A stretch of 30,654 bases of DNA from a virus, in IMG/VR virus record IMGVR_UViG_3300021197_001575, positions 1 to 30,654 of that record. The stretch is one strand, 5' to 3'. The position numbers and the translations under genes are program-made. How positions within the stretch are numbered: position 1 is the first letter of the stretch; every line of letters begins with the position of its first letter. The notes under the pieces were generated by a model. The model had not been told where the DNA came from. It did not search any database and saw nothing but the letters and a program-made list of their open reading frames with translations. Shown here one piece after another: positions 153-24,987 of the stretch.

Positions 153-218
153 GACCACCAGTGGAAAAGCTCAGCGACCACCAGTGGAAAAGCTCAGACC
201 ACCAGTGGAAAAGTTCAG
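153..218. repeat. Three direct repeats containing CCAGTGGAAA
   Basis: Three copies of a roughly 22-bp unit start at 153, 176 and 197. Each reads GACCACCAGTGGAAAAG followed by CTCAG or TTCAG. The core CCAC-CA-GTGG is itself an inverted repeat. The third copy overlaps the TGA stop (215-217) of the leftward gene. The same 10-bp word occurs seven more times in the window in the same orientation. With no spacer DNA between units this is not a CRISPR array. A repressor-binding or regulatory repeat is the likeliest reading, by inference. Confidence 0.85.
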
Positions 219-1036
219 TTGACGTTGACCAAGGCACGACCTCCAGCCATGCCAGCCTTGACCGGCTTGGCTGTGCGCAACGCACGACCGATGGACGCGC
301 CGATGTTCAGCGGCAAGCGCTTTCGGAGAGCCGGGATGGCTGCACCCATAAGGTTATAGGTTGGCTTTATCTTGGTGCTGGGCAGCAACGCGAACAACGT
401 CTCGACCTTGCGCGTTTCGTCGCGGAGCTTCTTGACGCTCTGTCCTGACGCACGCTTGGCTTTTCGGTTCGCTGAACCTCTAATCGCCGACGCAGTCCGG
501 CGCATGATAAAACGCACGCCATTATCCTTTTCGGTCACAAAGACTGTGGACTTTGGGATCAGCGCCTTGGGACGCTGGCTCTTCCTTATCGCGCCAGACG
601 GGCCGCGGTTTACCGGCTTCCTTCGGTAACGCGAGGCAACCGCAACGGTTGCGGCTTTGGTCGGGACTCTTGTTCCGCCCGTTATGTGCCTAGCGATCTG
701 ACCTGGCGTAACGGGCTTTCCCTTTTTGGGAATATTTTCTCGGCTCGTGTCTGTAAGGCCTGGTGGCGGACGGAGATGGCTTGCCTGAATCGCTCCGTGA
801 ATAATGCCATTGTTGCTTTTTGCTTGAGATTTGTTCGACCGGAAGGTGGCGTGCGTATGCTTGAAGAAGTTTTCGCTCCGCCGCTTAAACGTCCGGTCGT
901 AGGCCCTGCGGATTTCGTCGTCGCGGACGCGCTGCATCGTATTGTTAATGCCGAGCGACAGCGCGAAGGGCAACTGATCGGCGGTTACCCGATCCATATA
1001 GGCGGCTGTGAGCCCGGCGTTGGTTACGATTTGCAA
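215..1036 (-). CDS. Basic phage protein of unknown function (possible virion or moron protein)
   Basis: A 273-residue protein very rich in Lys and Arg, with no recognised catalytic motif, signal peptide or membrane segment. The N-terminal part (about residues 15-60: ADQLPFAL, then an RRAYDRTFKRR stretch) recalls small phage structural proteins that start with a similar 'ADQLPFA' segment, but I cannot name a family with confidence. The start is taken as TTG at 1036 because GGAGG lies 5 nt upstream (1042-1046) and a stop closes the frame shortly above. The gene stands alone: an intrinsic terminator (1090-1119) separates it from the replication operon, and copies of the CCRGTGGAAA word lie directly before its start and directly after its stop. 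That isolation suggests an independently controlled moron-like unit or a late gene read from elsewhere. Function is not known. Confidence 0.7.
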   Translation of the reverse strand: MQIVTNAGLTAAYMDRVTADQLPFALSLGINNTMQRVRDDEIRRAYDRTFKRRSENFFKHTHATFRSNKSQAKSNNGIIHGAIQASHLRPPPGLTDTSRENIPKKGKPVTPGQIARHITGGTRVPTKAATVAVASRYRRKPVNRGPSGAIRKSQRPKALIPKSTVFVTEKDNGVRFIMRRTASAIRGSANRKAKRASGQSVKKLRDETRKVETLFALLPSTKIKPTYNLMGAAIPALRKRLPLNIGASIGRALRTAKPVKAGMAGGRALVNVN

Positions 1037-1044
1037 ATGAGCCT

Positions 1045-1077
1045 CCAGTGGAAATAATTAAACCCCCGATGGAAAAG
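1045..1077 (-). promoter_or_regulatory. CCRGTGGAAA motif overlapping the ribosome binding site
   Basis: On the coding (minus) strand TTTCCACTGGAGG (1042-1054) merges the dispersed word with the Shine-Dalgarno GGAGG, 5 nt before the TTG start of the gene ending at 215. A degenerate second copy (CGATGGAAAAG on the plus strand, about 1067-1077) lies just upstream. The paired arrangement resembles 24963-24987. Confidence 0.6.
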
Positions 1078-1089
1078 TTCATACCACAG

Positions 1090-1119
1090 AAAAAGCCCCC
1101 ACCGCAAAGCGGCAGGGGC
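1090..1119 (-). terminator. Intrinsic terminator of the leftward replication operon
   Basis: On the minus strand a GC-rich stem (GCCCC/GGGGC outside, CCGC/GCGG inside, TTT loop, with a 2-nt internal mismatch) is followed immediately by TTTTT (1094-1090). It lies about 55 nt after the stop of the last gene of the operon (1176). This is a classical Rho-independent terminator. Confidence 0.9.
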
Positions 1120-1175
1120 AGGTAGCAACCAGGAGGATGCCCGCTGGGAGAAGCGGACTAGATGCAAGACTGATA

Positions 1176-1310
1176 TTATCCATTATCGAGCAGCTTGCAA
1201 GCCTTATGCTTCGTATATCCAGCCTTTAGCCTGCGCTTTCTGTCGCAGGCAACGCGTTGACGGAACAGCTTATTTGCCAGCGCTTTTGCCTGTGGATTTT
1301 TCTTCGCCAT
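1176..1310 (-). CDS. Small basic hypothetical protein, 44 aa
   Basis: A 44-residue, strongly basic protein (MAKKNPQAKALANKL..., with clusters such as RKRRLK). The ATG at 1310 is chosen over the upstream in-frame start because AGAGG lies 7 nt before it. It overlaps the end of the gene above by about 40 nt, a common arrangement in compact phage operons, and it is the last gene before the terminator at 1090-1119. Two Cys residues are present, but there is no clear zinc motif. The basic character would fit a nucleic-acid-binding accessory protein. No family is recognised with certainty. Confidence 0.65.
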   Translation of the reverse strand: MAKKNPQAKALANKLFRQRVACDRKRRLKAGYTKHKACKLLDNG

Positions 1311-1560
1311 CGTCCAACCTCTGCCGCGCCAGCCGCGCGTAACCTTCGATGTCGAGCCAATGATCGGGCTCATTGGCGTTGCCGCTCAAAATGCGGCACA
1401 CCTTTGCCGCTATCATATCTAAAGCTTCGCGCTGCACCACCGAAAGGTTGCCGTGAGCCTCACGGAAAAGCAGCTTCATCTCTTGCGCGAAATACGCATT
1501 CTCTTGAAAATCGCCATGCGTATTCGCGCGCTCCGTAATCACCATGCCTGCATCTCTCAT
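1270..1560 (-). CDS. DUF6378-like phage protein
   Basis: A 96-residue protein carrying the segments ITERANTHGDF near the N-terminus and QREALDMIAAKVCRILSG followed by NEPDHWLDIEGYA in the middle. These are the hallmark stretches of DUF6378, a small phage family found in replication and nucleotide-metabolism clusters. Its biochemical role is not established. The start at 1560 forms a TGATG junction with the upstream gene; an alternative ATG at 1545 (MVITERANTHGD) has a comparable ribosome binding site and fits the usual family start about equally well. The C-terminus is Lys/Ser-rich and probably disordered. Confidence 0.75.
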   Translation of the reverse strand: MRDAGMVITERANTHGDFQENAYFAQEMKLLFREAHGNLSVVQREALDMIAAKVCRILSGNANEPDHWLDIEGYARLARQRLDDGEEKSTGKSAGK

Positions 1561-2123
1561 CAAAACGGGACCTCGTCATTGTATGTTTTTGGAGAGCGGA
1601 CTTTTTTTACCTCCGCTCCAGGAAAGGCGGCCTTTACCTCGCTGACTCCGGGCCATCCCTGCATATGTTGCAGGGCGACGCCAACCTCGTGCATGGAAAA
1701 CAACTGGAGATCAGGATATTGCTCGCGAGCGGCCCGCCAGTCATACCCTTCTACCAGAATCCCAAATTGCTCACCATTGGGCATCTCGGCGCGAAGCACG
1801 CCGCCATGAGCAAGTTCCGCCCCTGACGCCTCCGCTTCTGCGTCCATGGCTTGCAGGCCACGCAAGACCGAACCAGCCCGCTTGATCACCTCGGCTGGAA
1901 TATACTCGTGAATGGCGTCCTCCATCTTTGCCCAGGCCGATCCGAACTTGCTAGCCGTATCCGGGCTAACCAAGCCGATCAGTCGATCCTGACCCCACTT
2001 CCTTTCCATGTCGTGCATAAGGCGGTCCACGGGCGCAAGAGCGGCATCGACGGCCACGTGGTGTACCGGTTGCTTGCCGTAGAGCAGCCTGTCCTTTTTG
2101 TTTTGATATACTTTCTTCATCAA
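1560..2123 (-). CDS. Hypothetical replication-operon protein with an SSB-like tail (DEVPF)
   Basis: A 187-residue soluble protein. A helical middle part (about residues 30-105: PVDRLMHDMERKWGQDRLIGLVSP, then an Ala/Glu-rich helix) is followed by a mixed region and a C-terminus ending YNDEVPF. This end resembles the acidic DDDxPF tail by which bacterial SSB recruits partner proteins, so the protein may bind replication factors in the same groove; this is inference. The gene overlaps the primase-helicase stop by 4 nt (ATGA), so it is translationally coupled to it. I cannot assign a named family. Confidence 0.7.
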   Translation of the reverse strand: MMKKVYQNKKDRLLYGKQPVHHVAVDAALAPVDRLMHDMERKWGQDRLIGLVSPDTASKFGSAWAKMEDAIHEYIPAEVIKRAGSVLRGLQAMDAEAEASGAELAHGGVLRAEMPNGEQFGILVEGYDWRAAREQYPDLQLFSMHEVGVALQHMQGWPGVSEVKAAFPGAEVKKVRSPKTYNDEVPF

Positions 2124-4198
2124 ACCCGACCTTCATCTCGCACGATCCATACGCGCCCATCGTTCTGGCAGAGATAATCAATAGCAATCAGCTTATCGAA
2201 CGCGGTCTTATAGCTGGCTTTTGTGCCGCTGATCCGTCCCATAACGTGCTCCTGAAGCTTATCGGCATCTATGCACCAGTATGCACCCCCCGGTGGAAAG
2301 CCCGTGCCACCGGGATTTGCTGCGCCTACGCCATCGTTGCGAAGTTGAAAGAAGCCATCCCGGATGGCAATCTGATTGTTGCCCTTGGGTTGCGGCCTCT
2401 GCGCCTCTGCCAACATCTCCAGATCGACCGCGTCGGCCTGTATCGCCATGGCTGTAGTGATATCGTCGCCGTCATCATCCATGCCGAGAATGATGCTTTG
2501 CAGCGTGAAGTGAATCGGGTCGCCAAACGGCATGTCGCGCTGTTTCGTAACCGAAGCCGTCCGCACGCCAGTCTCGCCCACGCTGATTTCAATCTCTGTG
2601 TCGATGGCCGCGCGCAAGCTGCTGTGGCCGCGAGCGCCGCGGGTGGCGTCCTTACCCAAGTGATGCACCAGGAGAATAGTGACCGAGCACTCGCGGGCGA
2701 TGTGACCGAGGTTGCGGATGACTTTGGTCATATCTGCTGGGTCGTTCTCGTCGCCGCCAGCCATCGACTGGCTAAGTGTATCGACGACAACCACCGACGG
2801 ACGCAGGCCGCTTAGCCGCTCGATGACGTCCAGCTCTTTCGCCGTGCGCTCTGAGCAGTCCGAGCCGTGTAGGAAGTCGATGTCGGAAAAGCGGAAAGCC
2901 ATCATCCATTCCGGGATGGAAAAAGTCTGCCGCAGGCCAAGGACGCGATTGCGGATGCCATATTCGCCTTCGGCGGCGAGATAGAGCACAGGCGCTTGTT
3001 CGACTTTCCGTCCGAACCATGGAGCACCAGTGGAAATGCTCGCAGCGAGGTGCAGCGCCAAGAACGACTTGCCGCTGTTGCTGGGGCCGTACAGCATCGA
3101 CAGCGACTTGGATGCCAGCATGCCCTTAACGATGTATGGCGACGCCGCCACCTCTGTGATGTCGTGTGCCCACACCAGCCCAGCCTTGATCCGCTCGAAA
3201 TCTTCGTCGTCAACAACGGCGTCCTGCAACGGCGGCAGGGCCGTTTGGTTGCTTGGCGAGTATTTAGCCGTCGCGCCACGCAACATAACGTCAAGCTCTC
3301 TGGCCGTCCGCTCAGCGCTATAGCCTGGGAGCGTCAGCGCCTGGGCGTACTGCGCGATGAATTGACTGGCGGACATGCCCTTCGCGATGGCCGAAGCGGA
3401 AAGTTTAAGGACGCTCTGGTGCCACAGGCCAGGAGCGCGGCTCTGCGCCATGAGCGCATCCCAGTCATGGCCTTCGTGGCCGAAGTCTATGTTCATAAGA
3501 CCGACCGAGGCAGACTGCTGCATCGTTTCGGGCGGGCTGTCGTTGGCCGAATAGATTTCTTTCTCGGCCAACATTGGCTGCTCAACAGCCGGAGCGATGT
3601 TGGCCAAATAAGTTCTCTTTTCGGCCAACATTTTTACCGTGCTGACTACCTCTGGAGTATAGCCTTTCGCCTGCTTGCGCTCGTCGGGATAGCTGACAAA
3701 GCCCGGCACGCGCATCACGCGGCTCGGGTTGCGGACAGCCTTGTCTGTTTGCAGGGTGTCGATCAGACGACCCTGCGCCTCGCGGAATTCGTTGCTCGTG
3801 ATCGGCTCTTCTAAACGCCAGTAGGCATGGCCGCGAGGTGCTGGCTCCGTACCGGTCTGCACCAGGATGGTCGGCTCAGGGCCGTCAAAGCTCTGAATGC
3901 GCTCCCATGCGTGGCCGTCATCAGCGTCCACGTACAGGTAGTGCGCGCGGCGGATATCGGTGTCGCGAGCCGACTGCGTCTGAGTGCGAGCCGGATTGAT
4001 GCACGCGTACACGTTGTATTCGCCGTCGTTCGCTGCCGCAGCGAACGCGATAGCCTCGTCCAACCTATCGGCTGAAAATGTGTCTTGAGTGATCTTGCCG
4101 TGAGCGGCAATGCACCTGATGTTCAGGCGATCTCCCTCCGCCCAGTCCTCGGTAATAGTTGATAGAAATTGACGCGCTGCGTCTAGGTCCTGTTGCAT
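2120..4198 (-). CDS. Bifunctional primase-helicase (RepB-like primase plus RepA/AAA_25 ATPase)
   Basis: A 692-residue replication protein. Residues about 20-185 look like a RepB-type primase: NVYACINPAR, then YLYVDADD (acidic metal-binding residues), GHAYWRL, and PSRVMRVPGFVSYPD. After a linker at about 185-345 comes a RecA-fold helicase of the RepA kind: Walker A GPSNSGKSF at 371-379, Walker B SVVVVDTLSQS, then VTILLVHHLGKD. The likely role is priming and unwinding at the phage origin. It is the central gene of the leftward operon. The linker contains an imperfect duplication (MLAEKRTYLAN / MLAEKEIYSAN) that coincides with an array of inverted repeats at 3542-3631. Translation appears to start at the ATG at 4198 behind an unusual hairpin (4207-4228). 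Two copies of CCRGTGGAAA fall inside the gene, at 2290 and 3027. Confidence 0.9.
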   Translation of the reverse strand: MQQDLDAARQFLSTITEDWAEGDRLNIRCIAAHGKITQDTFSADRLDEAIAFAAAANDGEYNVYACINPARTQTQSARDTDIRRAHYLYVDADDGHAWERIQSFDGPEPTILVQTGTEPAPRGHAYWRLEEPITSNEFREAQGRLIDTLQTDKAVRNPSRVMRVPGFVSYPDERKQAKGYTPEVVSTVKMLAEKRTYLANIAPAVEQPMLAEKEIYSANDSPPETMQQSASVGLMNIDFGHEGHDWDALMAQSRAPGLWHQSVLKLSASAIAKGMSASQFIAQYAQALTLPGYSAERTARELDVMLRGATAKYSPSNQTALPPLQDAVVDDEDFERIKAGLVWAHDITEVAASPYIVKGMLASKSLSMLYGPSNSGKSFLALHLAASISTGAPWFGRKVEQAPVLYLAAEGEYGIRNRVLGLRQTFSIPEWMMAFRFSDIDFLHGSDCSERTAKELDVIERLSGLRPSVVVVDTLSQSMAGGDENDPADMTKVIRNLGHIARECSVTILLVHHLGKDATRGARGHSSLRAAIDTEIEISVGETGVRTASVTKQRDMPFGDPIHFTLQSIILGMDDDGDDITTAMAIQADAVDLEMLAEAQRPQPKGNNQIAIRDGFFQLRNDGVGAANPGGTGFPPGGAYWCIDADKLQEHVMGRISGTKASYKTAFDKLIAIDYLCQNDGRVWIVRDEGRV
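2290..2299. repeat. CCGGTGGAAA copy inside the primase-helicase gene
   Basis: An exact copy of the dispersed word, on the plus strand. On the coding strand it encodes part of a GTGFPPGG segment near the C-terminus of the primase-helicase. Confidence 0.7.
3027..3036. repeat. CCAGTGGAAA copy inside the primase-helicase gene
   Basis: An exact copy of the dispersed word in the same orientation as all the others. On the coding strand it encodes part of SISTGAPW, just after the Walker A region. Confidence 0.7.
3542..3631. repeat. Four-site GTTGGCC inverted-repeat array (candidate replication origin)
   Basis: GTTGGCC occurs at 3542-3548 and 3599-3605, and its complement GGCCAAC at 3566-3572 and 3623-3629, giving alternating orientation with start spacings of 24, 33 and 24 bp. 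The sites form two hairpins: GTTGGCCGA/TCGGCCAAC with a 13-nt loop, and ATGTTGGCC/GGCCAACAT with a 17-nt AT-rich loop. The array encodes the linker between primase and helicase domains. In phage lambda the origin iterons lie in the corresponding linker-coding part of gene O, so an origin or initiator-binding site is a reasonable inference. Confidence 0.6.
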
Positions 4199-4234
4199 CT
4201 ACTAATGCGGCGGGGTTGCCCCCGCCGCTCTCCC
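4199..4234 (-). promoter_or_regulatory. Hairpin between Shine-Dalgarno and start codon of the primase gene
   Basis: On the minus strand GGGAGA (4234-4229) abuts a perfect 9-bp stem GCGGCGGGG/CCCCGCCGC (4228-4207) with a GCAA tetraloop of the GNRA class, then ATTAGTAG and ATG. The linear distance from the SD to the ATG is 30 nt, too long for normal initiation; with the 22-nt hairpin folded it becomes 8 nt. No other ribosome binding site precedes this ATG. The geometry resembles the structured initiation region described for T4 gene 38. A terminator is less likely because no T-run follows. Confidence 0.6.
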
Positions 4235-4254
4235 GTTGTTAGTGTTTTGCTCCC

Positions 4255-4827
4255 CTAAAATTCGAGGTCATCATCCTTGCTCTCAGCGGGGGCAACGTCC
4301 TGAGCATCATCTGTAAGGCATGCGGGAGGGCTCACGTATTTGACGCACTCAAGAATAGGAACGACAGTGCCGCCACGTGCGAACTTTAGAACCTCAACGT
4401 CTTTCAGCTTAGCGACAGGCATCTTGTCTGCCGGTAGATCGTTGAGCTGAACGATAAAGCGCTTAATCGCTTCCCAGGCACCTGCGCCCGCCTGCTCCCA
4501 AACCACCCTTGTATCGCCCCCTAGGGCCACAGGGAGACGGAAGCCGCGCTTCCAGCCATCCCCCTCCGGCTTGGCGCGGAAGCGGCTAGGAGTGTCATTC
4601 CAAATCCACTCTGGGGCCATTCCGGACATCCCGTCCGAGCGCTGCCAACCCGTCTGTAGCGAGCGCACGTCGACTATCGCTCCCTTGTTTAGATCGACGG
4701 GCTCCTTGCCGTCGCGAGTGCGGAGGCTGAATGAGCGAGGGGCGATGGAGCCGTCATGGCTTCCGTTCGCAGACCAGCTTAGGAAGGGGCCGGACGCAAT
4801 GTCTGCGCCAAAATCGATATCAAGCAT
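4255..4827 (-). CDS. Candidate single-stranded-DNA-binding protein with acidic C-terminal tail
   Basis: A 190-residue protein placed between the PD-(D/E)XK nuclease and the primase-helicase. It has no OB-fold signature that I can prove by eye, but the body (DIDFGADIASGPFLSW, later SLQTGWQ, WIWNDTPSRF and WKRGFRLPVALGG) matches a conserved phage replication-operon protein type. It ends SKDDDLEF: an acidic tail closing in Phe, as in SSB (DDDIPF) and T7 gp2.5. I therefore infer a phage SSB substitute that coats ssDNA and recruits partners by its tail. The ATG at 4827 is chosen because AAGGAAAAAGC precedes it; upstream in-frame TTG at 4899 would add 24 residues overlapping the previous gene. The leader contains ACACTAACAA, repeated before the primase gene. 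Confidence 0.65.
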   Translation of the reverse strand: MLDIDFGADIASGPFLSWSANGSHDGSIAPRSFSLRTRDGKEPVDLNKGAIVDVRSLQTGWQRSDGMSGMAPEWIWNDTPSRFRAKPEGDGWKRGFRLPVALGGDTRVVWEQAGAGAWEAIKRFIVQLNDLPADKMPVAKLKDVEVLKFARGGTVVPILECVKYVSPPACLTDDAQDVAPAESKDDDLEF

Positions 4828-4853
4828 GCTTTTTCCTTTTTTCCTTGTTAGTG

Positions 4854-5612: not shown

Positions 5613-5627
5613 TTTGCTGTCCAATCG

Positions 5628-6059: not shown

Positions 6060-6088
6060 AATATCTCAAAAGCAGGGCAGCTTGGCGT

Positions 6089-6144: not shown

Positions 6145-6146
6145 CC

Positions 6147-6171: not shown

Positions 6172-6258
6172 TAAAAGAATGGCTGCGTCGTTTTGGTTAG
6201 TTTGCCTGCGCATCATTGCGCGCTAGTTTTTGCGCTACACCAAAAGAGGATGAAAATA

Positions 6259-8873: not shown

Positions 8874-9078
8874 GCGTGAGACCTGGCTGGAAATGAAACG
8901 ACGCCACGAATACGAGATGGATAGGATGCTTGTGGACGCGATGAAGGCCCACGGCATGAACAAGACAAAGGCCGCGGATATGATCGGTATTCCGCGTCGA
9001 ACAATACAGCGACGCTGGCATGATCGACACTTGCTGGAGCTAGTCAAGCTCGACGAGGCTACCGATGGAAAAGGTTAA
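8866..9078 (+). CDS. Fis-type HTH DNA-binding protein
   Basis: A 70-residue protein. The N-terminal half is a charged helix (WLEMKRRHEYEMDRMLVDAMKAHG). The C-terminal half, MNKTKAADMIGIPRRTIQRRWHDR, is a Fis/NtrC-type helix-turn-helix (HTH_8). The ATG at 8866 overlaps the ThyX stop by 8 nt. The stop lies inside the end of the convergently transcribed endolysin gene (20-nt overlap), with no terminator between, so the two transcription units run into each other. It may be a nucleoid-like or promoter-specific regulator closing the rightward operon. Confidence 0.75.
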   Translation: MTERETWLEMKRRHEYEMDRMLVDAMKAHGMNKTKAADMIGIPRRTIQRRWHDRHLLELVKLDEATDGKG

Positions 9079-15843: not shown

Positions 15844-15857
15844 GTCTAGCTCCTTTA

Positions 15858-16475: not shown

Positions 16476-19105
16476 CAGTCGTATCCTACGTGAGCCACCA
16501 GCTCGTCAATAGCTGGGCCGACGCCATTGGCGGTTGAGTTTAGTATTACTTTATACCTAAAGGCGCGGCCTGAGAAGTCCCCAGCCTGGAAGAGCCGGTA
16601 AGCGCTCCACACCGGCGACCCTGACGGATCGTCGTCAGTAGTCGATATGTACGTCTGCACGTCTGTGTCATCGGTCTGTAGGCCAGACGTCCAGCTATCC
16701 CAGTTACCAGGCCACGTGTCCCAGTTGCCGCTTATGCCATCCCAGGCGCTAGCACCGCTAGGCGCTGATCGGATTGTCCTTACATGAACATAGGAATGGA
16801 CCCGCCTGACTGCGCCGGTGTCGATATAGTTGGCGAATTCATATGTCGCGCTGGATGGCGCGCTGGCCGGGTCAGTGATCTTCAGGAACCCGCCGTTGAC
16901 AGAACAACCGGTCTTGGTTCCGGCGAAGCCGCTCTGCTCAGTCTGGCTGCTGTTATTTGTGTACGATCTTAAGTCTGCTGCGGGCAAAACAAACGAAGAG
17001 TATTCTGTCGAGGCGGTGCCCAGCTTTGAATAAGCCTTAACCATGTACGTGCCCGCGCGCGCTGGCAGGCTTACGGAGGTTCCAGGCCGACTAATTTTCT
17101 GAGCTGCGGTTGTCGCGTTTGAAAAACTCGCGCCCGCCTGCGAAACCGAATGGCGAATGACGTAATGGCTCAACTTAGGGTCGCTAACGGCGATCCATCC
17201 GATATGAACGGTGCCGTCGCTCGCGCTGGCTGCGAAGCCGGTCACGTCGTCAGGCGGGGAGCCGTCGCCCTGCACCAAGCCCGTCGCACCCCTCCAGCTT
17301 CCCCGCACCCCAATAGCGTTGATTGCCCGCGCGCGCACGTCGTAGGAGCCAAGATCGACATTTATTGCCTCAAAGCGGCCTGTCGCTGTGGTTCCGCTCA
17401 GCACAAGCTCGCCGGTGCCCATAGCCTTATATTGTTCCGTCGTGCTAGCCTTATATTGCACCTCGACCCGGTCCACGTTGGAATTTGCCTCGGCGCTGAC
17501 GGTGATCATCGCCACAAGGACATTAACAATCTGCTCGTTCGATACACGCTGCTCCTCTGACGCCGTGACGCCTACGGTGACCACTGTATTTGGCCGAGCC
17601 AGAAATGTGTTGTTGGCCTCGAATAAGGTCTCGTCAGCATCCCAGTCATACACGCTTGCACTGATCTCCTGTAGAGTCAGTGGCACCACGATAGCCCCAT
17701 CCGCATCGACGCCAAAACTCCACTCGACCACCTCGAATGTTTTCTCCGAGAAGCCAAAGCGCGAATTTGTAAGCTTGATAGTGTCGCCTGGTGTCAATTG
17801 AGCCGCTCTCAAGCCGAAATTTCCACTAACGATGATCTGCTCTCTGCTCCTATACATAAGTATCTTGGCAATTCTCTGAGCCCTGCTTGGCGAAGAGGTA
17901 AATTGCAGGTCGATCTCAGCGCTAGAGACTTGGTTTCCGTCGTCCTCCAGGAACTGATCCGACAGGACCGGTGGAAATGTGTCCGGCTGCCAGTTTGTTT
18001 CAGCGCCGCGAAACGAGCCGGTCACCCGGTTAAACAAATCTCTACGGGAAGCTCTGGTGATTACGCTTAGAGGACCAAAGGCATCGTCCTCGGTGAACGT
18101 CATCACGGACTCGGTGTACGCGCCAGCTTTGCAGACCCACTTGCCCTGGCTGTACCACAACGAGCCAGCCATGCACTTCACCATCTCGTTGATGATGTCC
18201 ATTGGTTTTTGCTCGGTGGAAAAGAAGCCGTCGCAAGAATAGCGCTTCTCGGTGCCTCCGGCATCAAGCGCCACGTCTTCGTCGCATATGTTGGCCGCTG
18301 CTGCGAAGCTAGTGTCATCCAGCTCATAATCTTCGGCAATTTTACTTGTCAGCAAATAATCGCGAAGACAAAGAGCGGCATTGCTGCTGAATGACGTTGA
18401 GCCGTCTCGCGGGTCGTAGACCTTTTTGCCTTCGATGACTGCCGTGATCACCGGTGGCCCCTGAGTGTATATATCCGGCTCAAAAGCTGCGCGGGCATAG
18501 ATGTAAGCGAAGCCATAGGCTCTATGCTGGCTCGTCCAGAAGTTTTCGCTCTCGACTTCAAGATTAGCGTCTACGGTCTGAAAATCTGCGCCGTTGTGCG
18601 TGAGTATCCGCAGCGTTTCTCCACCTGAGTATTTAGCTGGCGAGGTCACCTCGCCTGTCACAGCATTAACGGTAACCTCCTCGCCATCGACGTAGAACTC
18701 GATAAAGCCGTTAATCTCGTGGCCCGCGACTCCGATCAATCGGTGAAGAGTGGTTTCTGGCCGTTCGCTTTGCGGCACACTCATCGGGCCGGTCGTCTCT
18801 TGGTAGAACACAACCCCGCCCATTCTTGCCGTGCCATAAACGACAGGGGCTGCGGCAAGACTATCCATGATGTTTATGGCGGAACCGGCGTAGCGCTTTG
18901 CTTTTGGGGCCAGCATTTGCTTAAGGGCAAATTGCGCTCCCATCGTCACCAGCATTGAGCCAGCCGTGACTACGGCCACCGACGCTGCGGTCGCAGTCGC
19001 GGGGAGCGCCGCAAGGGCCATGGCCACAACTGCGTGCGCCGAATGCGGCAAGAGCGCAATTGCGCTCACTGATGTCGCGAGAAATATTTTTATTGCACGA
19101 GCCAT
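16475..19105 (-). CDS. Tail tip / host-specificity protein, lambda gpJ-like
   Basis: An 876-residue central tip protein. Residues 1-75 are strikingly hydrophobic and begin like a signal peptide (ARAIKIFLATSVSAIALLPHSAHA). The middle, about 80-520, is the Phage-tail_3/gpJ hub (APVVYGTARMGGVVFYQ, then ICDEDVALDAGG, KRYSCDGFFSTEQKPMDIINEMVKCMAGSLWYSQGKW). Two fibronectin-III-like domains follow (about 530-720), then a C-terminal beta-domain ending in a discoidin-like strand pattern (YKVILNSTANGVGPAIDELVAHVGYD). It recognises the host and starts DNA ejection. It overlaps the DUF6950 gene by 16 nt. A CCGGTGGAAA copy lies within it at 17968. Confidence 0.85.
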   Translation of the reverse strand: MARAIKIFLATSVSAIALLPHSAHAVVAMALAALPATATAASVAVVTAGSMLVTMGAQFALKQMLAPKAKRYAGSAINIMDSLAAAPVVYGTARMGGVVFYQETTGPMSVPQSERPETTLHRLIGVAGHEINGFIEFYVDGEEVTVNAVTGEVTSPAKYSGGETLRILTHNGADFQTVDANLEVESENFWTSQHRAYGFAYIYARAAFEPDIYTQGPPVITAVIEGKKVYDPRDGSTSFSSNAALCLRDYLLTSKIAEDYELDDTSFAAAANICDEDVALDAGGTEKRYSCDGFFSTEQKPMDIINEMVKCMAGSLWYSQGKWVCKAGAYTESVMTFTEDDAFGPLSVITRASRRDLFNRVTGSFRGAETNWQPDTFPPVLSDQFLEDDGNQVSSAEIDLQFTSSPSRAQRIAKILMYRSREQIIVSGNFGLRAAQLTPGDTIKLTNSRFGFSEKTFEVVEWSFGVDADGAIVVPLTLQEISASVYDWDADETLFEANNTFLARPNTVVTVGVTASEEQRVSNEQIVNVLVAMITVSAEANSNVDRVEVQYKASTTEQYKAMGTGELVLSGTTATGRFEAINVDLGSYDVRARAINAIGVRGSWRGATGLVQGDGSPPDDVTGFAASASDGTVHIGWIAVSDPKLSHYVIRHSVSQAGASFSNATTAAQKISRPGTSVSLPARAGTYMVKAYSKLGTASTEYSSFVLPAADLRSYTNNSSQTEQSGFAGTKTGCSVNGGFLKITDPASAPSSATYEFANYIDTGAVRRVHSYVHVRTIRSAPSGASAWDGISGNWDTWPGNWDSWTSGLQTDDTDVQTYISTTDDDPSGSPVWSAYRLFQAGDFSGRAFRYKVILNSTANGVGPAIDELVAHVGYD
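17968..17977. repeat. CCGGTGGAAA copy inside the gpJ-like gene
   Basis: An exact copy of the dispersed word. On the coding strand it encodes part of DTFPPVLS. It may be coincidental coding sequence or a functional copy. Confidence 0.6.
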
Positions 19106-19527
19106 ACTACCGCCCCATCAATTGGCATGCGCAATATTCCGTGGCTGCCTACGCACATTGCACCCAAGCTTCCCATGACGCCCAACCTGTATTGGTAGAG
19201 GATGTTCTTGCGGTCAACATCAACGGGCATGGCTATGACTGAGCCGATTGGCGGATGCCTGAGCGGCGACCGATCTAGACGCTCATCGATCAAGCTGACG
19301 ATATCCCCATGCTTGGTCGCGCGGCTGACACGGATTGCTCGTCTCAGCGCGCCAAACTCTGTGGTGTATCCGCGATGCTCTTCGATCAGGTCATCCAGGA
19401 AGCCAGACCCGCGCTGCGCCGCCGCCGCTTCGTTCGCGAACGTAAAGCAGTCGTGCCGCCCCCACTCGAATGGCTTGCCCGCGACGGAATCGAGGTAGGT
19501 AATCAGTTTTTCTCGACTGGATGTCAT
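19090..19527 (-). CDS. DUF6950 tail protein (lambda K position)
   Basis: A 145-residue protein with the DUF6950 signature PFEWGRHDCFTFANEAAAAQRG, then RGYTTEFGALRRAIRVS and KHGDIVSLID. The Cys in HDCFTF and the later VGSHGILRMP recall a degenerate NlpC/P60 fold, matching the place of lambda gpK just before the tip protein. It may process peptidoglycan or be purely structural. The ATG at 19527 lies 2 nt after the upstream stop and gives the usual family start; a longer upstream frame only reads through the previous gene. Confidence 0.8.
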   Translation of the reverse strand: MTSSREKLITYLDSVAGKPFEWGRHDCFTFANEAAAAQRGSGFLDDLIEEHRGYTTEFGALRRAIRVSRATKHGDIVSLIDERLDRSPLRHPPIGSVIAMPVDVDRKNILYQYRLGVMGSLGAMCVGSHGILRMPIDGAVVWLVQ

Positions 19528-19529
19528 CG

Positions 19530-20234
19530 CTAGAACATCCCGCCGCCGCCGCCCATCTTCACGCCCCGGCCCCACATAAGCGGCTTGTCCTGGAGGTCTG
19601 CGACATATTCAAATGCTTTGTCTGGTGGAAAGTTAGGAAAGCGAACCCGCTGCGCCTCAGTCGTATAGCGTATGGGCCGCGGGCGCTCCAGATCGACCAG
19701 CTTGCTTTCGAGCGAAACGGAAATCGTCGAGGTCTCACCGCCCTCGTCGATTATCATTTGATCCATGTAGCCAACGAATAGCGTCGTTAGAGCTTGCGCG
19801 TCACCGATGGAAACGGAGATTGCCGCACCACTTTCTTGCAAGAGGTAGTCGCCGGTTTCTTGAAGCAGGAAGTCTTGATCCAACGCCGTCAACCCAAATT
19901 TGATGCGGGCAATGCGGCCATGGTATTTCGTTTGCAAAGCCAAGGAGAGCAGCGACCCTGGGATGCCGGACAACGAGATGTTTGCTCCAGCAGAACGAAC
20001 GTCACTCGTCTCTAATAATGCCGATATGGTCAAAAGATTGCCCGCACCAGTGTAGGTCACACTGCCGAGCGTCAGGTCGCCAAGGCCCGTCCAGAAATGG
20101 AGCGGCGTGTCATCGATCTCGAAATCAACAGCATAAAAGGGGCGGATTTCTGCCCTACCCAGGTTTGGAGCGATTGACCCCATATCTTTGCCGGTGTAGG
20201 TGTCGCCGCTAGTCTCATAGCGCCGCGTCACCAT
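19530..20234 (-). CDS. Minor tail protein (lambda L position, DUF2163-like)
   Basis: A 234-residue beta-rich protein (FYAVDFEIDDTPLHFWTGLGDLTLGSVTYTGAGNLLTISALLETSDVRSAGANISLSGIPGSLLSLAL...). The pattern matches the minor tail hub proteins found between the distal tail protein and gpK/DUF6950. FVGYMDQMIIDEGGETSTISVSLESKLVDLERPRPIRYTTEAQR near the C-terminus is characteristic. It ends with a Gly-rich tail (GGGGGMF). It probably forms the hub ring under the tail tube. A TAATG junction couples it to the gene above. Confidence 0.75.
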   Translation of the reverse strand: MVTRRYETSGDTYTGKDMGSIAPNLGRAEIRPFYAVDFEIDDTPLHFWTGLGDLTLGSVTYTGAGNLLTISALLETSDVRSAGANISLSGIPGSLLSLALQTKYHGRIARIKFGLTALDQDFLLQETGDYLLQESGAAISVSIGDAQALTTLFVGYMDQMIIDEGGETSTISVSLESKLVDLERPRPIRYTTEAQRVRFPNFPPDKAFEYVADLQDKPLMWGRGVKMGGGGGMF

Positions 20235-20857: not shown

Positions 20858-22971
20858 CAGGCAAAGGCCCCCGCAAATGAGCCGCCGCGCCGCCGAGCGT
20901 CGAGCACCGCCTGGGTGCTTGCCGCTGCGATTTGCGGCATTAGGCTCTGGATTTCCGCACGAACAGTCTGCTGCACCCCGGTGCTGACGTTGAACGTCTG
21001 ATTGATCTGACTGCCAGAGCCACCGAGTTCATCGTTAGGAACGACCCTGCCTGAAGCTGAGGGTATCATGAGCTCCGGCCCCATCTCGCCCACCAAATAT
21101 GGCCGAGTCGCGGATGCGTAGCCGCCTTTTGCGAGAGGCTCGATAAGGCCTCCAACATCATCGCCCGAGGTCGCTGGGCCACTCAAGAGGCCGCCCAGGT
21201 AGCTAAAGCCTTTTTCCAGCAAACCCCAAAGTCCATCACCGCCGCCAGCGCCGCCAGCGCCACTCAGCTTGTCGAACAAGCCATCCAGGGCAGCGTCTAT
21301 GCTTTTGTCCATGAGGCTCGACAGTATCTCCCCCATCATGTCCCGGAAGGCTTCCGAGACGCTCTTGGTGCCGTCGATGACACTTTTGAATGCCGACTTG
21401 AATGACGAAGATATTTTGTCGAAAGCGTCTTTCAGCTCCTTGCCAGCCTCCTGCGAGGAATCTTCAAGCTTCTTTAACCTCTCGACAAGCAGGGCGAACT
21501 GAGCGTCAGTCAACTTAAGGGTCGTTGCTATCTTGGCCGCCTGCTGTGCAACGTTTTTGGACAGGCCCAGCTCGTTCATCAGCCGCTGCTTCTCGGTGAT
21601 CTGAGCGATCTGGAGGTTGATCTTACCAAGCTCCTTCAGGTAGTCTTGCGTGACGGGCGAGGCTTGGGGGATGGGAATTGCGCCTGTGCTGAAGCCGCGC
21701 ATGTCTTCCGGTTTACGCACTTTGGCCTGCTTCGTCAGCTCATCTGTTATTTTTCGTTCTGCCGCCAAGCGTGCCTGTAACAAAGCGCTATTAGCGGCAA
21801 GGTCGCCAGAAAGAAGCCTCGTGGCTTCCGCGGTCGCCTCCGTCTGTTCCATGCCCTGTTTCAGGAGGACGTTAATCTCTCTTTGAATTGCCAGCGCCAC
21901 GCCAAGTGGCGCTAGTTCTGAGCTATCCATTGAAAAGGTTTCCATCGAAGCTATGGCGGCGGAAAGCTCAATGGTTGATGATTTAGCCTGATCGGCTTGC
22001 CCTGCATATGCGCTCATTTCCACGGCAAGAGTGTTCAACCGTTCGCCAAGCCCGCCCACGGCGTGGAAAGCTTTCTTCATTGGGGCTGGCAATTCGTTTG
22101 CTTGCGTATTTATTTCAAGCAATACAGCGCTTGTATCTTTTCCGGCTTCTACCTGCGCTTGAAATTTAAGTATTAACGCATCAATAGCAACGATAGCTTT
22201 ATTGCCAACAGCGTTTGCCATCCTTAATGTCGTGCCTTCTATGATCTTATTTATTGCTTCGACGTTTGTGGCTCTTTTCCTAGCAGATACAGCGTTTTTC
22301 TCAAGATATATACTTAAGTCCTTTAAGGCGTCTACTTGACCACTTGGGACAAGATCCCGAAATACATCTCTTAATCCTTGAGCACCCTCCGTCAAAGATT
22401 GCAATTTTATCTTTCTCTGATTCTCTATAAATATTTTAACGCCATCGCTCATCTCGCCAAATTTAGCTTTAGCTTCTTCAAAGCTACTAGCTACTTCTAC
22501 TCTAAATGTTTTGCCAACGTCGCGGGCTGCGCTGTTAAGTGCGCTTAACGAATCGTGCATATTGTCTATTTTTGACTTTGCCTCTTCCGCCGAATCCCCG
22601 GTCTTCATAATGGCCACGCCGACAGCCGCAAAGATGGCCACGGCTGCGCCGATGATTGAACCCAACGGGCCAAATATTTGAAGAAGCTGCGGAGCCTGCT
22701 GGCCGAATGCTTGCAAAGCATTGGTGCCGCCGCCAACCTGAACGGCGAAATCGCCGAGCTGATAGCCGGTTTGCTGCAAACCGCTGCGGAAGAATTTATT
22801 TCCGCCGCCAGCGCCAGTCAAATTCTTGCCGAACACCTTGACGTTTTGGTTGGCCGTTTGGGTTCGCTTGCCAAAGTCGCGCACTGCGTCGCCAGCCGCA
22901 TTGATTTGAGACGTTGCGCCCTTGACGTTCGCTTTAACATTAATGTTGATGTCTGAGCTAACGCCTGCCAT
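20857..22971 (-). CDS. Tape measure protein
   Basis: A 704-residue tail-length protein. The N-terminal coiled-coil part includes a glycine-rich segment, and a hydrophobic region (about residues 95-120, PLGSIIGAAVAIFAAVGVAIM) is typical. A long helical middle and a C-terminal GGYASATRPYLVGEMGPELMIPSASGRVVPN motif are standard for tape measures. At about 1.5 angstrom per residue the tail would be near 105 nm. DNA encoding the first half of the helical middle (about 22080-22500) is near 40% GC by my count, well below the surrounding genes. The ATG overlaps the GT-extension frame above. Confidence 0.9.
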   Translation of the reverse strand: MAGVSSDININVKANVKGATSQINAAGDAVRDFGKRTQTANQNVKVFGKNLTGAGGGNKFFRSGLQQTGYQLGDFAVQVGGGTNALQAFGQQAPQLLQIFGPLGSIIGAAVAIFAAVGVAIMKTGDSAEEAKSKIDNMHDSLSALNSAARDVGKTFRVEVASSFEEAKAKFGEMSDGVKIFIENQRKIKLQSLTEGAQGLRDVFRDLVPSGQVDALKDLSIYLEKNAVSARKRATNVEAINKIIEGTTLRMANAVGNKAIVAIDALILKFQAQVEAGKDTSAVLLEINTQANELPAPMKKAFHAVGGLGERLNTLAVEMSAYAGQADQAKSSTIELSAAIASMETFSMDSSELAPLGVALAIQREINVLLKQGMEQTEATAEATRLLSGDLAANSALLQARLAAERKITDELTKQAKVRKPEDMRGFSTGAIPIPQASPVTQDYLKELGKINLQIAQITEKQRLMNELGLSKNVAQQAAKIATTLKLTDAQFALLVERLKKLEDSSQEAGKELKDAFDKISSSFKSAFKSVIDGTKSVSEAFRDMMGEILSSLMDKSIDAALDGLFDKLSGAGGAGGGDGLWGLLEKGFSYLGGLLSGPATSGDDVGGLIEPLAKGGYASATRPYLVGEMGPELMIPSASGRVVPNDELGGSGSQINQTFNVSTGVQQTVRAEIQSLMPQIAAASTQAVLDARRRGGSFAGAFA

Positions 22972-23116
22972 TTTTCTTTACCCGCTCGGCCTCGATCCGG
23001 TGGAAAGCTATCCACTCATTCATTTCGCTAAGACTGATCTGCTCTATCTCAGCTATCGTGCGACCAAGCCGATCCGCCAGCGCGACGAGGTTATAGCGCA
23101 GCGGATCGGCCTTTAG
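22958..23116 (-). CDS. GT-type C-terminal extension made by -1 frameshift (lambda T analogue)
   Basis: An open frame in the -1 register continues the tail chaperone gene from its slippery site. It reads LKADPLRYNLVALADRLGRT, then IAEIEQISLSEMNEWIAFHR and IEAERVKKNGRR, and stops at TAG 22958-22960, inside the first codons of the tape measure gene. The extension is 52 residues, for a fusion near 167. 'SEMNEWIAFHRIEAER' is the kind of Glu/Trp-rich helix found in T domains. In lambda, the rare GT form coats the tape measure protein while the G form is abundant. It has no start of its own. Confidence 0.85.
   Translation of the reverse strand, partial: LKADPLRYNLVALADRLGRTIAEIEQISLSEMNEWIAFHRIEAERVKKNGRR
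22997..23006. repeat. CCGGTGGAAA copy upstream of the tape measure start
   Basis: An exact copy of the dispersed word, about 26 nt before the tape measure ATG and inside the GT-extension frame. On the coding strand it reads TTTCCACCGG. Confidence 0.6.
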
Positions 23117-23122
23117 TTTTTT
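23068..23122 (-). promoter_or_regulatory. -1 programmed ribosomal frameshift signal
   Basis: On the minus strand the heptamer A_AAA_AAC (23122-23116) lies just before the stop TAA (23115-23113) of the short chaperone. After 5 nt comes GCCGATCCGC (23110-23101), which pairs perfectly with GCGGATCGGC (23077-23068), a 10-bp stem with a 23-nt loop. Slippery site, spacer and stimulatory stem all match the standard design, and the -1 frame is open for 52 codons. Confidence 0.9.
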
Positions 23123-23460
23123 TCCTGATCCTCAACGGAGACCGTCTCAAAGATCGAGCCGAAGACCGTCGCAATAGTGCCCGCCGATTGGCGACTTAGG
23201 ATTGCTTTGTCTTCTAGGTCGAAGAGCTTCTCGCCGTCAGCGTCAATGGCTTTGATAACGATAAGCTCTACCATTGCGTCCATCGACGGATTGGCCAAGA
23301 AGTCCTTGTGCTTACGCTGAACTCGGCTGATGTCTGCACCAGAGATAGGATGATAATAGAGCTTGAGCGGCCCATTATTATCGCCCCACTCGGGCACCTC
23401 TATAACGCGCGCGTCAATCGACGCGGACGCTGCCGCAATCCGCTGTCCCAGTACACTCAT
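23113..23460 (-). CDS. Tail assembly chaperone, short form (lambda G analogue)
   Basis: A 115-residue protein between the tail tube and tape measure genes. It begins MSVLGQRIAAASASIDARVIEVPEWGD and contains LKLYYHPISGADISRVQRKHKDF, typical of phage G-like chaperones that start with a short beta part and continue into helices. The zero-frame product ends EDQEKN at TAA; a fraction of ribosomes should shift at the A_AAA_AAC site to make the longer GT form. No strong SD precedes the ATG; GGGTGA lies close by, 11 nt after the tail tube stop. Confidence 0.85.
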   Translation of the reverse strand: MSVLGQRIAAASASIDARVIEVPEWGDNNGPLKLYYHPISGADISRVQRKHKDFLANPSMDAMVELIVIKAIDADGEKLFDLEDKAILSRQSAGTIATVFGSIFETVSVEDQEKN

Positions 23461-23470
23461 CAGTCACCCG

Positions 23471-23860
23471 CTATGCTGTGGCGGTAGTAAGCGCGCCCGT
23501 GCCCTGCACGCCAATGGACATCTCGACCATACCGTCAAAAGACGCGTTGATTGAGCGCGATGTCACGATGGCTGTGCCGCTGTAGTAGGTGTCGCCGCTC
23601 GCAGCGCCCTCTGGGTAGAATTTGATCGTCACTTCAGCGCCGATGGCAAGCGCCACCTGACCGTTGGTATCGGTCTCGTCCCAGAACACGTCAAGGGTGC
23701 CGTCGAAGGACGTTAGGCTAGGCTTGTGCGTGCGCGCGGTGTCGCCCATCGCGGTGTCTTCGATGGTGTCGGCATTTTCGTTGACGTTGTAGGAGCGAAT
23801 TTCGGCGACAGCCGCCGATCCTACGTGGACAGTCCCCTCTGAGCCGGTGTGCGTTGCCAT
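23471..23860 (-). CDS. Major tail (tube) protein
   Basis: A 129-residue tail tube protein. The sequence THTGSEGTVHVGSAAVAEIRSYNVNENADTIEDTAMGDTARTHKPSLTSFDGTLDVFWD and the closing beta-strands (TAIVTSRSINASFDGMVEMSIGVQGTGAL) match the small HK97/lambda-V-like tube fold. It forms the stacked hexameric rings of the tail. It precedes the G/GT chaperone in canonical order. A GGAG ribosome binding site lies 8 nt before the ATG, and the 130-bp upstream gap holds a possible promoter and palindrome. Confidence 0.85.
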   Translation of the reverse strand: MATHTGSEGTVHVGSAAVAEIRSYNVNENADTIEDTAMGDTARTHKPSLTSFDGTLDVFWDETDTNGQVALAIGAEVTIKFYPEGAASGDTYYSGTAIVTSRSINASFDGMVEMSIGVQGTGALTTATA

Positions 23861-23990
23861 TTACGTGTCTCCAGATGTTGGGTCGCAGAGACGCGAGACG
23901 CCTCTATGCCGCACATATACCATATGTCGCGCGACAATCCAACACACCGTGGAGATTTATATAACTGGAGGCAGCCGCAAAGTGCGTCGC
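23861..23990 (-). promoter_or_regulatory. Intergenic region with palindrome and possible promoter before the tail tube gene
   Basis: This 130-bp gap is one of the few in the late block. It contains the perfect 12-bp palindrome TGTCGCGCGACA (about 23925-23936), next to an imperfect CATATACCATATG palindrome. On the minus strand TTGGAT, then 17 bp, then TATATG could be a weak sigma70-type promoter overlapping both. It may boost tail tube expression under the control of a dimeric regulator. The calls are by eye and tentative. Confidence 0.4.
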
Positions 23991-24434
23991 TTATCGAGCG
24001 GTCTCTACATCATTAATCGAAGTCACGTACTCGATGGAGTAACGAAGACGAGCAACGCCAATTGGCTGCTCGGCCTCTCCGGTCAATTGAAGATCGGTTG
24101 CAGTCAGCACACACCGTTTGGCTAGGCCATTAAGTGTGAAATCGTTGGCAATGCTTTCCTCAATCTCAACGCATATATCATCAAGTGCGTCGTCCAGATC
24201 GGCATTTGCTTTGTCGTAGACATCAACCATAATGTCTACGTTTCTCTGCATGGTTCTCAGGCCTATCGTGCCCAAAGCGCTGGACTCGGAGTCGAACGAC
24301 ACAGTCACCACAGGTAGGTTCTCGCCCTTAAGGGAGTACACTCTGTTAGTGTACACCCGTCCCGATACCGACGTAACGCCAGAGGCCAAGGTGCTTTGCA
24401 TCCGGTCGCGCAGCTGCTGACGGACGTGAGCCAT
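23991..24434 (-). CDS. Tail terminator protein (lambda U-like)
   Basis: A 147-residue alpha/beta protein (MAHVRQQLRDRMQSTLASGVTSVSGRVYTNRVYSLKGENLPVVTVSFDSES..., then RNVDIMVDVYDKANADLDDALDDICVEIEESI). This is the typical layout of gpU-type proteins, which cap the finished tail and join it to the head. It sits between the FII-like connector and the tail tube gene, as in lambda. A TAATG junction couples it to the upstream gene. Confidence 0.85.
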   Translation of the reverse strand: MAHVRQQLRDRMQSTLASGVTSVSGRVYTNRVYSLKGENLPVVTVSFDSESSALGTIGLRTMQRNVDIMVDVYDKANADLDDALDDICVEIEESIANDFTLNGLAKRCVLTATDLQLTGEAEQPIGVARLRYSIEYVTSINDVETAR

Positions 24435-24754
24435 TATCGCTTCTCCAACCGCAGTTCAGATACGCCGGTTCCGTCGTCTGTTACCTCGCGAACGAAATAG
24501 CTGACGGAGTTTATCACGATCAGCGCGCCGTCCATGGCCGCCGCATGAGCGACGATGTCAGTCGAGCGGCAAGTGAACATCGGTGTGCGCATGATTATCG
24601 GCAGGGCACCATCGGTCTCCTGCTCCTCTAGCGCCCTGTCGAAGAAGCCTTTTAGCGTTGTCGCCGAGCCGCCAACGGGCGTCAGCGTGGCGGCAACGCC
24701 AAAGTCCTCGACGCCAATCATCAACGATAGGTCACTGTCGAGCGGAATAGACAT
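24434..24754 (-). CDS. Head-tail joining protein (lambda FII-like)
   Basis: A 106-residue small beta-barrel protein. The segment FGVAATLTPVGGSATTLKGFFDRALEEQ followed by IIMRTPMFTCRSTDIVAHAAAMDGALIVINSVSYFVREVTDDGTGVSELRLEKR mirrors gpFII: barrel strands with a closing 'GxxxLxLxxR'. It would bind beneath the portal ring and provide the tail attachment site. Location between the capsid-side accessory gene and the terminator gene agrees. The start overlaps the previous stop (TAATG). Confidence 0.85.
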   Translation of the reverse strand: MSIPLDSDLSLMIGVEDFGVAATLTPVGGSATTLKGFFDRALEEQETDGALPIIMRTPMFTCRSTDIVAHAAAMDGALIVINSVSYFVREVTDDGTGVSELRLEKR

Positions 24755-24954
24755 TACTCGGCTTCATCTTCCGGCGTTTCTACATCCCAAATTGCGCGAT
24801 CAACTTTAGGCTTGCGTCCGCGCTTCTTTACCTCTTCCAGGTATCCGCGATCAATCAATTTCTGCGCAATGGCATCAGGAAGATCATACTCTTCGCCAGG
24901 CATCATATTGCCGCCAGTGCCAGCAAAACACTTCTCTATTACTTTGACTTTCAT
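24754..24954 (-). CDS. Small head-region protein (DUF7210-like, lambda FI position)
   Basis: A 66-residue protein: MKVKVIEKCFAGTGGNMMPGEEYDLPDAIAQKLIDRGYLEEVKKRGRKPK and an acidic end (WDVETPEDEAE). The 'GxxxxPGEEYDLPDxxAxxLIxxGYLE' pattern is common in small genes directly downstream of phage capsid genes. It may be an assembly or packaging helper. The start has GGAG within the dispersed TTTCCACCGGAG motif, 6 nt before the ATG. Confidence 0.75.
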   Translation of the reverse strand: MKVKVIEKCFAGTGGNMMPGEEYDLPDAIAQKLIDRGYLEEVKKRGRKPKVDRAIWDVETPEDEAE

Positions 24955-24962
24955 GGGTCACT

Positions 24963-24987
24963 CCGGTGGAAATTGATCCGGTGGAAA
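24963..24987 (-). promoter_or_regulatory. Paired CCGGTGGAAA motifs forming the ribosome binding site
   Basis: Two exact copies lie 15 bp apart (24963-24972 and 24978-24987). On the coding strand the copy nearer the gene reads TTTCCACCGGAG, then TGACCC, then ATG, so its 3' end supplies the Shine-Dalgarno of the gene at 24754-24954. The pair lies directly after the hairpin at 24989-25014. Confidence 0.7.

Follow-up and report, generated by a model that had tools for sequence, protein, structure and literature searches.

What purpose could a ten-base word serve that recurs along a phage genome in a single orientation? The question is raised by the viral record IMGVR_UViG_3300021197_001575 of IMG/VR, which we analysed at its whole length of 30,654 bases (classed as linear; here called the window). 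A preliminary description had reported ten exact copies of CCRGTGGAAA on the plus strand, and all ten are present, at 158, 181, 202, 1045, 2290, 3027, 17968, 22997, 24963 and 24978, with none on the minus strand; 100 dinucleotide shuffles gave a mean of 0.10 and at most 2. On the minus strand, which carries the terminase and most window genes, the word reads TTTCCAYYGG. We show here that it is a polar, DNA-level, genome-wide word, accompanied by tandem arrays, whose strand is fixed to that of the terminase in two phage groups that differ in their terminases. The word is confirmed as real, dispersed and one-directional, in full-genome scans it is not at background frequency on both strands, and the observation is larger than first stated.

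Copies in the window

Allowing one mismatch, the window holds 17 matches where 3.15 are expected, 16 on the plus strand and 1 on the minus strand, and the suggestion that degenerate copies extend the set is borne out by CCGATGGAAA at 1066, 9062 and 19804. Compared with the list of open reading frames (ORFs), the exact copies at 158, 181, 202, 1045, 24963 and 24978 lie between genes and those at 2290, 3027 and 17968 inside them; the copy at 22997 appears to fall in a frameshift extension of the tail-chaperone gene. When 41 window genes were shuffled with their codons preserved, three intragenic copies were reached in 2 of 2000 shuffles (mean 0.26). A blind ranking of all window 8- and 9-mers by strand-biased excess placed TTTCCACCG first, followed by TTCCACTGG and TTTCCACTG. 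Strict one-strandedness is weakened at the level of the nine-base core defined below, which occurs 14 times on the minus strand and twice on the plus strand (21939 and 25626).

Tandem arrays and their carriers

A scan of viral contigs for two word copies 4 to 16 bases apart returned at least 120 stretches. Of these, six coding-repeat loci (L013, L058, L065, L088, L096 and L105) were set aside manually and 23 have no extended-motif pair; among the 120 matches listed, 91 carry tandem arrays of TTTCCAYYGGWGGGG with at least one extended-unit pair. The consensus WWTTTCCAYYGGWGGGG, which includes the six coding-repeat loci and is partly fixed by its own seed, is drawn from 330 distinct copies in 124 sequences (the 120 listed plus CRP-6, CRP-811, L189 and the window), and 273 of 340 array spacings are 15 to 27 bases. 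The unit spacings are mostly odd (17, 19, 21, 23, 25), with 26 as the main exception. A collection of genomes from 84,980 species holds the extended pair in four contigs, one of which belongs to this family: a short contig with a 17-base unit period, binned in a Rhodobiaceae metagenome-assembled genome and, judged by its neighbours, probably a phage.

Two isolates bear arrays, the Roseobacter phages CRP-811, with a gene order like that of the window, and CRP-6; no array was found in Pelagibacter phage HTVC024P or in roseophages CRP-9 (last 46 kb) and CRP-118. The carriers form a window type and a CRP-6 type, which differ in terminase and replication genes and have tail genes in common. In window-type phages the array lies directly 3′ of a gpZ-like gene, with an offset of +7 and/or +28 after it common to the window, CRP-811, L199, L205, L303 and L312. 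Copies stand on both flanks of this gene in eight phages (the window, CRP-811, L092, L199, L296, L303, L306 and L312), and at its start an offset of +3 is common to six of the seven measured. The CRP-6 array is placed between early plus-strand genes and the operon leading to the terminase. It adjoins a second array (L182, 44510-44732) of nine direct copies of GTTGCAAAAATGTCAC-like or GTTGCAARAATGTCAC-like units, and clusters of GTTC-N7-GTTC, which we take to be the alphaproteobacterial LexA box, adjoin the word array in L023 (10487-10520), L118 (1253-1296), L012 (1434-1554) and L111 (4187-4288); neither the window nor CRP-811 has such clusters. The main texts of the open literature searched yielded no report of this word, and the term 'repeat' occurs 0 times in the accessible parts of the roseophage papers.

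Strand of the word and direction of transcription

Gene strands were counted in 102 array contigs, which were not dereplicated and whose gene calls are mechanical ORFs. With the word set on the plus strand, TerL was on the plus strand in 40 of 40 CRP-6-type and 8 of 8 window-type hits, and TerS in 49 of 49 and 8 of 8. The polymerase was on the minus strand in 26 of 26 cases and the primase-helicase in 42 of 42, whereas the window-type helicase was on the plus strand in 9 of 9. The strand of TerL is thus constant, that of the replication genes reversed between the two groups: the word tracks the terminase strand and not the replication genes.

Dereplication of the kept loci, pooled with the isolates, the window and loci added later, left 41 contigs (472 kb) in one count and 39 (479 kb) in another. 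In the 41 contigs, isolated 10-mer cores number 35 on the array strand (12 in sense ORFs, 18 in antisense ORFs and 5 between them) and 1 on the opposite strand. Genes outside arrays in the 39 contigs hold 23 copies on the same strand, 11 sense and 12 antisense, and 0 on the opposite strand, with codon-preserving nulls of 1.8 and 1.2. In 80 dereplicated array-less relatives (887 kb), by comparison, 0 copies are on the equivalent of the array strand and 7 on the other (nulls 1.7 and 6.0). After merging of homologous positions across the 102 array contigs, the 10-mer has 32 positions on the array strand and 1 on the other, and the 9-mer 68 and 9.

TerL loci and polymerase loci were also fetched with CRP-6 proteins regardless of the word (at least 80 loci and 697 kb each). 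Single 9-mer cores among the 80 TerL loci listed number 84 on the TerL strand and 6 on the opposite one, and 19 of the 80 have arrays, all on the TerL strand; among the 80 polymerase loci listed, 3 are on the polymerase strand and 236 opposite, with arrays in 10, all opposite. Nine dereplicated loci of each kind gave 18 vs 0 for the TerL strand and 1 vs 35 for the polymerase strand. At TerL and polymerase loci, respectively, a word with an altered centre scored 14 to 17 and 7 to 18, and the reversed word 11 to 35 and 7 to 14. Many of these unselected loci are near-identical, and redundancy alone can skew a control up to about 3 to 1, though not to the degree observed; at the terminase, moreover, the lopsided control leans in the opposite direction. 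Late genes carry the word in sense and early genes in antisense, and it is two to three times as dense near the polymerase as at the TerL loci.

The core of the word

The polar core is shorter than CCRGTGGAAA: on the terminase strand it is the 9-mer TTTCCA(CT/CC/TC)G, with the complement CRRTGGAAA. The sub-words TTTCCACT and TTTCCATC occur 57 times (null 8.0) and 35 times (null 9.6), against 7 (null 7.4) and 10 (null 6.2) on the opposite strand, and TTTCCAYYG followed by a base other than G occurs 58 times (null 11.0) against 8 (null 5.7). Altered words are mostly at the null; TTTCCAYYGC reaches 19 (null 3.8) but contains the core. A moderate excess of TT[ACG]CCAYYGG (14, null 6.1) and TTTCCAYY[ACT]G (14, null 5.2) suggests that near-cognate sites may belong to the set as well. 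Same-strand and opposite-strand counts of the 9-mer core are 16/0 in CRP-6, 7/0 in CRP-811 and 14/2 in the window, that is, about 7 to 16 sites per genome with arrays included.

Gain and loss among relatives

CRP-811 shares 89% identity in TerL, 87% in TerS and 85-90% in the helicase with CRP-821, CRP-823 and CRP-831, and it alone of these has arrays. Against its 7/0 cores, CRP-821 has 0/0, CRP-823 2/1 and CRP-831 0/0, and CRP-406 has 0 on that strand. One CRP-811 site, in an HTH gene within a 97% identical stretch, is also present in CRP-823; the sites at 19522 and 9443 sit in rewritten blocks, with flanks 81-85% identical in the relatives. No other polar word stands out in a blind screen of CRP-821, CRP-823, CRP-831 and CRP-406. 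According to the accessible part of the source, CRP-811 and the wordless CRP-821, CRP-823 and CRP-831 all infect CHUG strains (PMC12629253). Such sporadic presence, in CRP-811 and not in its relatives, would be expected of a dispensable system.

At the intragenic sites of the window, the codons of relatives differ, and in many cases so do the encoded residues, as with GFPPG in the window and GWP in relatives; we infer the direction of the codon change at these sites. Arrays occur in 7 of 159 loci of relatives of the window terminase and helicase, all 7 co-oriented with the terminase or helicase, and among capsid relatives a close pair is found in 1 of 53, the contig L133, which is near-identical to the window. 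Loss of the word in related phages whenever the coding constraint is relaxed had been named in the preliminary description as something that would speak against it. Relatives without the word do exist, but they are array-less, and its copies appear and vanish together.

A possible nick or strand-marking site

By analogy with phages whose genomes are nicked, we tentatively read the word as a strand-specific nick or marking site, while holding this reading to be somewhat short of probable. The word, which has arrays of the longer form TTTCCAYYGGWGGGG upstream of the terminase genes, would be recognised by a strand-specific nicking, or other strand-marking, system. Virion DNA would carry single-strand interruptions at word sites, clustered at the arrays, as in tf, phiKMV and T5. 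More speculatively, nicks 15 to 27 bases apart on one strand could shed short oligonucleotides and leave a gap.

In the accessible text of the respective reports, the 14 nicks of phage tf fall at TACT/RTGMC on a single strand, and the interruptions of phiKMV-like phages and T5 are likewise confined to one strand (PMC3517423), while Rembedalsseter has 13 nicks on one strand at WACTRTGAC and 60 relatives are enriched for the word on one strand (PMC11780129). The latter source places nick sites within genes as well as outside them, for the most part on the coding strand and with a higher density towards the right of terL-oriented genomes, and calls their function enigmatic. In our own count, TACTRTGMC occurs 14 times on one strand of tf and 0 times on the other, mostly in plus-strand genes and in two minus-strand genes too. 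As a positive control, our blind screen ranked the nick word first in tf, and it ranked the present word first in the window and CRP-6. The nicked strand of tf is opposite TerL, and the equivalent strand here carries CRRTGGAAA, the orientation in which the word was first described.

The words of tf and Rembedalsseter thus resemble the present one in being short, asymmetric, confined to one strand, in excess, placed in genes of both directions and found across a phage group. They differ in the word itself, and the present case adds tandem arrays with a G-rich tail, spans two groups with different terminases and is known from sequence only. The nicks of phiKMV-like phages and T5 are similar in keeping to one strand, but differ in their consensus words, and the accessible text on them mentions no arrays. 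As to a rightward tendency in terL-oriented genomes, the agreement is at most partial: with arrays included, the left and right halves hold 4/12 sites in CRP-6, 1/6 in CRP-811 and 6/8 in the window, compared with 3/11 for the tf word.

Several observations weigh against a nick site. Without arrays, the halves are weakly skewed (4/8 in CRP-6, 1/2 in CRP-811 and 4/3 in the window). The blind screen of CRP-811 puts CCTGTGTTG first (8 to 1), with TTCCATCGG, the best sub-word of the present word, lower. Tandem arrays with a G-rich tail are not described for nick words in the accessible literature and look more like iterons or operators; the word differs from the nick words in that literature, and the centres of the array units vary more than the tf word does. 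BLAST detected no nickase, and no protein that is common to both carrier groups yet missing from close non-carriers.

With slightly more reserve still, we suggest a strand-marking system that extends across phage groups differing in terminase and replication modules, in which arrays and the genome-wide nine-base word may set polarity along the direction of packaging, and, as part of the same suggestion, that the arrays may be programmed nick clusters or loading sites, a form of which the accessible open literature yielded no report.

Alternative explanations

It is possible, if rather doubtful, that a protein of replication or packaging binds the copies as iterons. The array would then resemble an origin or serve as a loading platform for packaging, and the scattered copies, in the same orientation, would be auxiliary sites that steer a directional motor or fork. 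The arrays are direct repeats, mostly spaced 15-27 bases and often intergenic, they adjoin other repeats (the GTTGCAAAAATGTCAC-like units of CRP-6, and GTTC-N7-GTTC in L023, L118, L012 and L111), and their strand is fixed to the terminase in two terminase types; they fit iteron-like binding nearly as well as nicking or marking. Plasmid and phage iterons are likewise direct repeats, about two helix turns apart, but here same-strand copies are also scattered, and intragenic same-strand copies genome-wide are, to our knowledge, not usual for iterons. Against such a protein also stand the 85-90% identity of TerL, TerS and helicase between CRP-811 and its wordless relatives and, in L189 and L113, a cos-like element separate from the array.

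The word itself is probably not a cos or terminase site, given that separate element and the 87% identity of TerS in the wordless relatives. The cos-like element of L189 and L113 is TAGGTTCTTCTGG, some 2.5 kb from the array in L189; the four wordless isolates CRP-821, CRP-823, CRP-831 and CRP-406 have it in the interval that separates the gpZ-like gene from TerS. The conserved element of this interval, TAGGTTCTTCTGGC...GGGTAATYCNGACC (L190 129-87, L191 129-87, L192 30969-30927, L193 28278-28237), whose first half is also found in L189 (2891-2904), is a candidate cos site.

A word like Chi or KOPS, protecting or orienting the DNA with respect to a nuclease or motor acting from one end, is an unlikely explanation. 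It would suit a polar, short, dispersed and transcription-independent word, and the arrays lie near the place, a little way upstream of the terminase genes, where the DNA end is to be expected. Chi and KOPS are polar short words as well, but the present one has no Chi-like abundance in 142 alphaproteobacterial genomes, which may not include the true hosts: TTTCCACTG occurs 1885 times vs 2174 for its reversed control, and TTTCCACYGG 1767 times vs 1142, with at most 64 per genome and forward equal to reverse. The 10-mer is at least threefold above its control in 17 of the 142 genomes (each with 10 or more copies). The common CHUG hosts of CRP-811 and its wordless relatives, as given in the accessible text, also argue against such a role (PMC12629253). 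One genome of about 2 Mb, G107, holds TTTCCACTG 36 times vs 0 for the reversed control.

That the copies are repressor operators or stoperators of an immunity system seems improbable. The sites are asymmetric and short, with several per genome, and of the 26 contigs that extend far enough, 13 have a gene for a GP88 or DUF7227-like protein no more than 4 kb downstream of the array, but BLAST found no shared repressor and the orientation of the word ignores transcription. The stoperators of cluster A mycobacteriophages, to which the word had been likened, are also short, asymmetric and dispersed; according to the accessible text they are oriented with transcription (PMC6550527), whereas the present word keeps its genome strand through genes of both directions (11 sense, 12 antisense), and the analogy does not hold.

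An element acting on RNA or translation, such as a Shine-Dalgarno or start-associated sequence, is very improbable. The G-rich tail of some array units suggests a Shine-Dalgarno role, since it stands before gpZ-like starts, and the TGA of the unit is the gene stop in the sequences shown. On reading the sequence, we agree with the earlier remark that in two places the complement supplies the Shine-Dalgarno sequence of a leftward gene: GGAGG lies five bases before the TTG start at 1036 and GGAG before the ATG at 24954. Half of the intragenic copies are nevertheless antisense, and at the polymerase locus nearly all are. Cluster K start-associated sequences are copies just upstream of gene starts, and this second analogy drawn at the outset fails as well, with 30 of 35 isolated copies inside called genes.

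Chance or coding constraint is scarcely credible: copies in ThyX and polymerase genes share their position across relatives and so are not all independent, but the codon-shuffle null of 1.8 contrasts with 23 copies and 0 opposite, array-less relatives are at background, and 32 vs 1 remain after merging.

Search for a reader protein

The window encodes XRE-like (a weak match), Fis-like and GcrA-like proteins, no relative of which was found in CRP-811 or CRP-6 by tblastn (E up to 0.01). TerL, TerS and the helicase are 85-90% identical in the wordless CRP relatives and are therefore unlikely readers. The gpZ-like protein was considered because its gene is flanked in eight phages, but none was detected in CRP-6, and the candidate is further weakened by the protein of L092, which by eye resembles those of wordless phages. 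GP88/DUF7227-like proteins (the name DUF7227 stems from one sub-threshold Pfam match, in L107) were set aside as well, because only 13 of 26 contigs have one close to the array and because CRP-118 and S2B, which lack the word, also encode one. In BLAST comparisons, no cluster of neighbouring proteins among the 28 most widespread joins both groups, and the eight sequences compared share no small ORF 5′ of the gpZ-like gene. CRP-6 (L182, 3586-4101) encodes a sigma-factor-like protein (phrog_1740, E 1.3e-7) with BLAST homologues in 40 of the viral contigs compared.

Features of the window

At its right end the window breaks off within a gpA-type terminase gene; it further holds capsid, tail and lysis genes, an early plus-strand block encoding GcrA, Fis-like and ThyX proteins, and a block of helicase-primase genes ending in the gpZ-like gene. 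The word copies, the gpZ-like gene and the terminase gene described below are given for the minus strand. The tandem array (158..211) has three copies (158, 181 and 202) of a unit like TGARCTTTTCCACTGGTGGTC, directly 3′ of the stop codon of the gpZ-like gene (215..1036), which has the word on both flanks and matches phrog_1924 'minor tail protein' (E 1.6e-5) and no Pfam family. Just upstream of this gene lies a pair (1045..1075) of TTTCCACTGG (1045) and TTTCCATCGG (1066), 21 bases apart, where GGAGG is the likely Shine-Dalgarno sequence. At the left end, beyond the array, positions 1-90 hold short GC-rich repeats, GGCAGCGGCAGGCAGC; CRP-811 has different GC-rich short repeats in a similar place.

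Single copies follow in the helicase-primase gene, as TTTCCACCGG at 2290..2299 (GFPPG in the window, GWP or GYP in the listed relatives) and TTTCCACTGG at 3027..3036, a position without the word in nine listed relatives. TTTCCATCGG lies at the stop of the endolysin gene (9062..9071) and in a tail-module gene (19804..19813). A tail-protein gene holds TTTCCACCGG at 17968..17977, where nine listed relatives again have no word, and the 9-mer core TTTCCACCG with A as tenth base at 18214..18222. The TTTCCACCGG at 22997..23006 falls where the tail-assembly chaperone is probably extended by a frameshift; relatives' codons differ here, except in L133, a 95% identical contig. A pair of TTTCCACCGG, 15 bases apart (24963..24987), stands in the gap that separates the capsid gene from the next, and one of the two copies provides GGAG ahead of the ATG. 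After the capsid gene, 24979-25015 form an inverted repeat followed only by TTT, a part of the word; a terminator scan gave no terminator there. The terminase large subunit of gpA type, cut by the window end, spans 29417..30652, and its coding strand carries the word.

Significance and other strand-biased words

According to section 3.9 of PMC11780129, phages with nicked genomes were already known 50 years ago, and the function of the nicked state is still enigmatic. CRP-811 and its relatives, with terminase and helicase 85-90% identical, provide isolate pairs in which the presence, the maker and the benefit of the sites become testable. The comparison of same-strand with opposite-strand copies, split by gene direction and set against a codon-preserving null, is usable on any phage genome. 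In Caulobacter phage S2B (L195), which has an annotated T7-type RNA polymerase, CTTGCGTCA (8 to 0) and TTGCGTCA (11 to 3) are strand-biased, and these words are possibly promoters.

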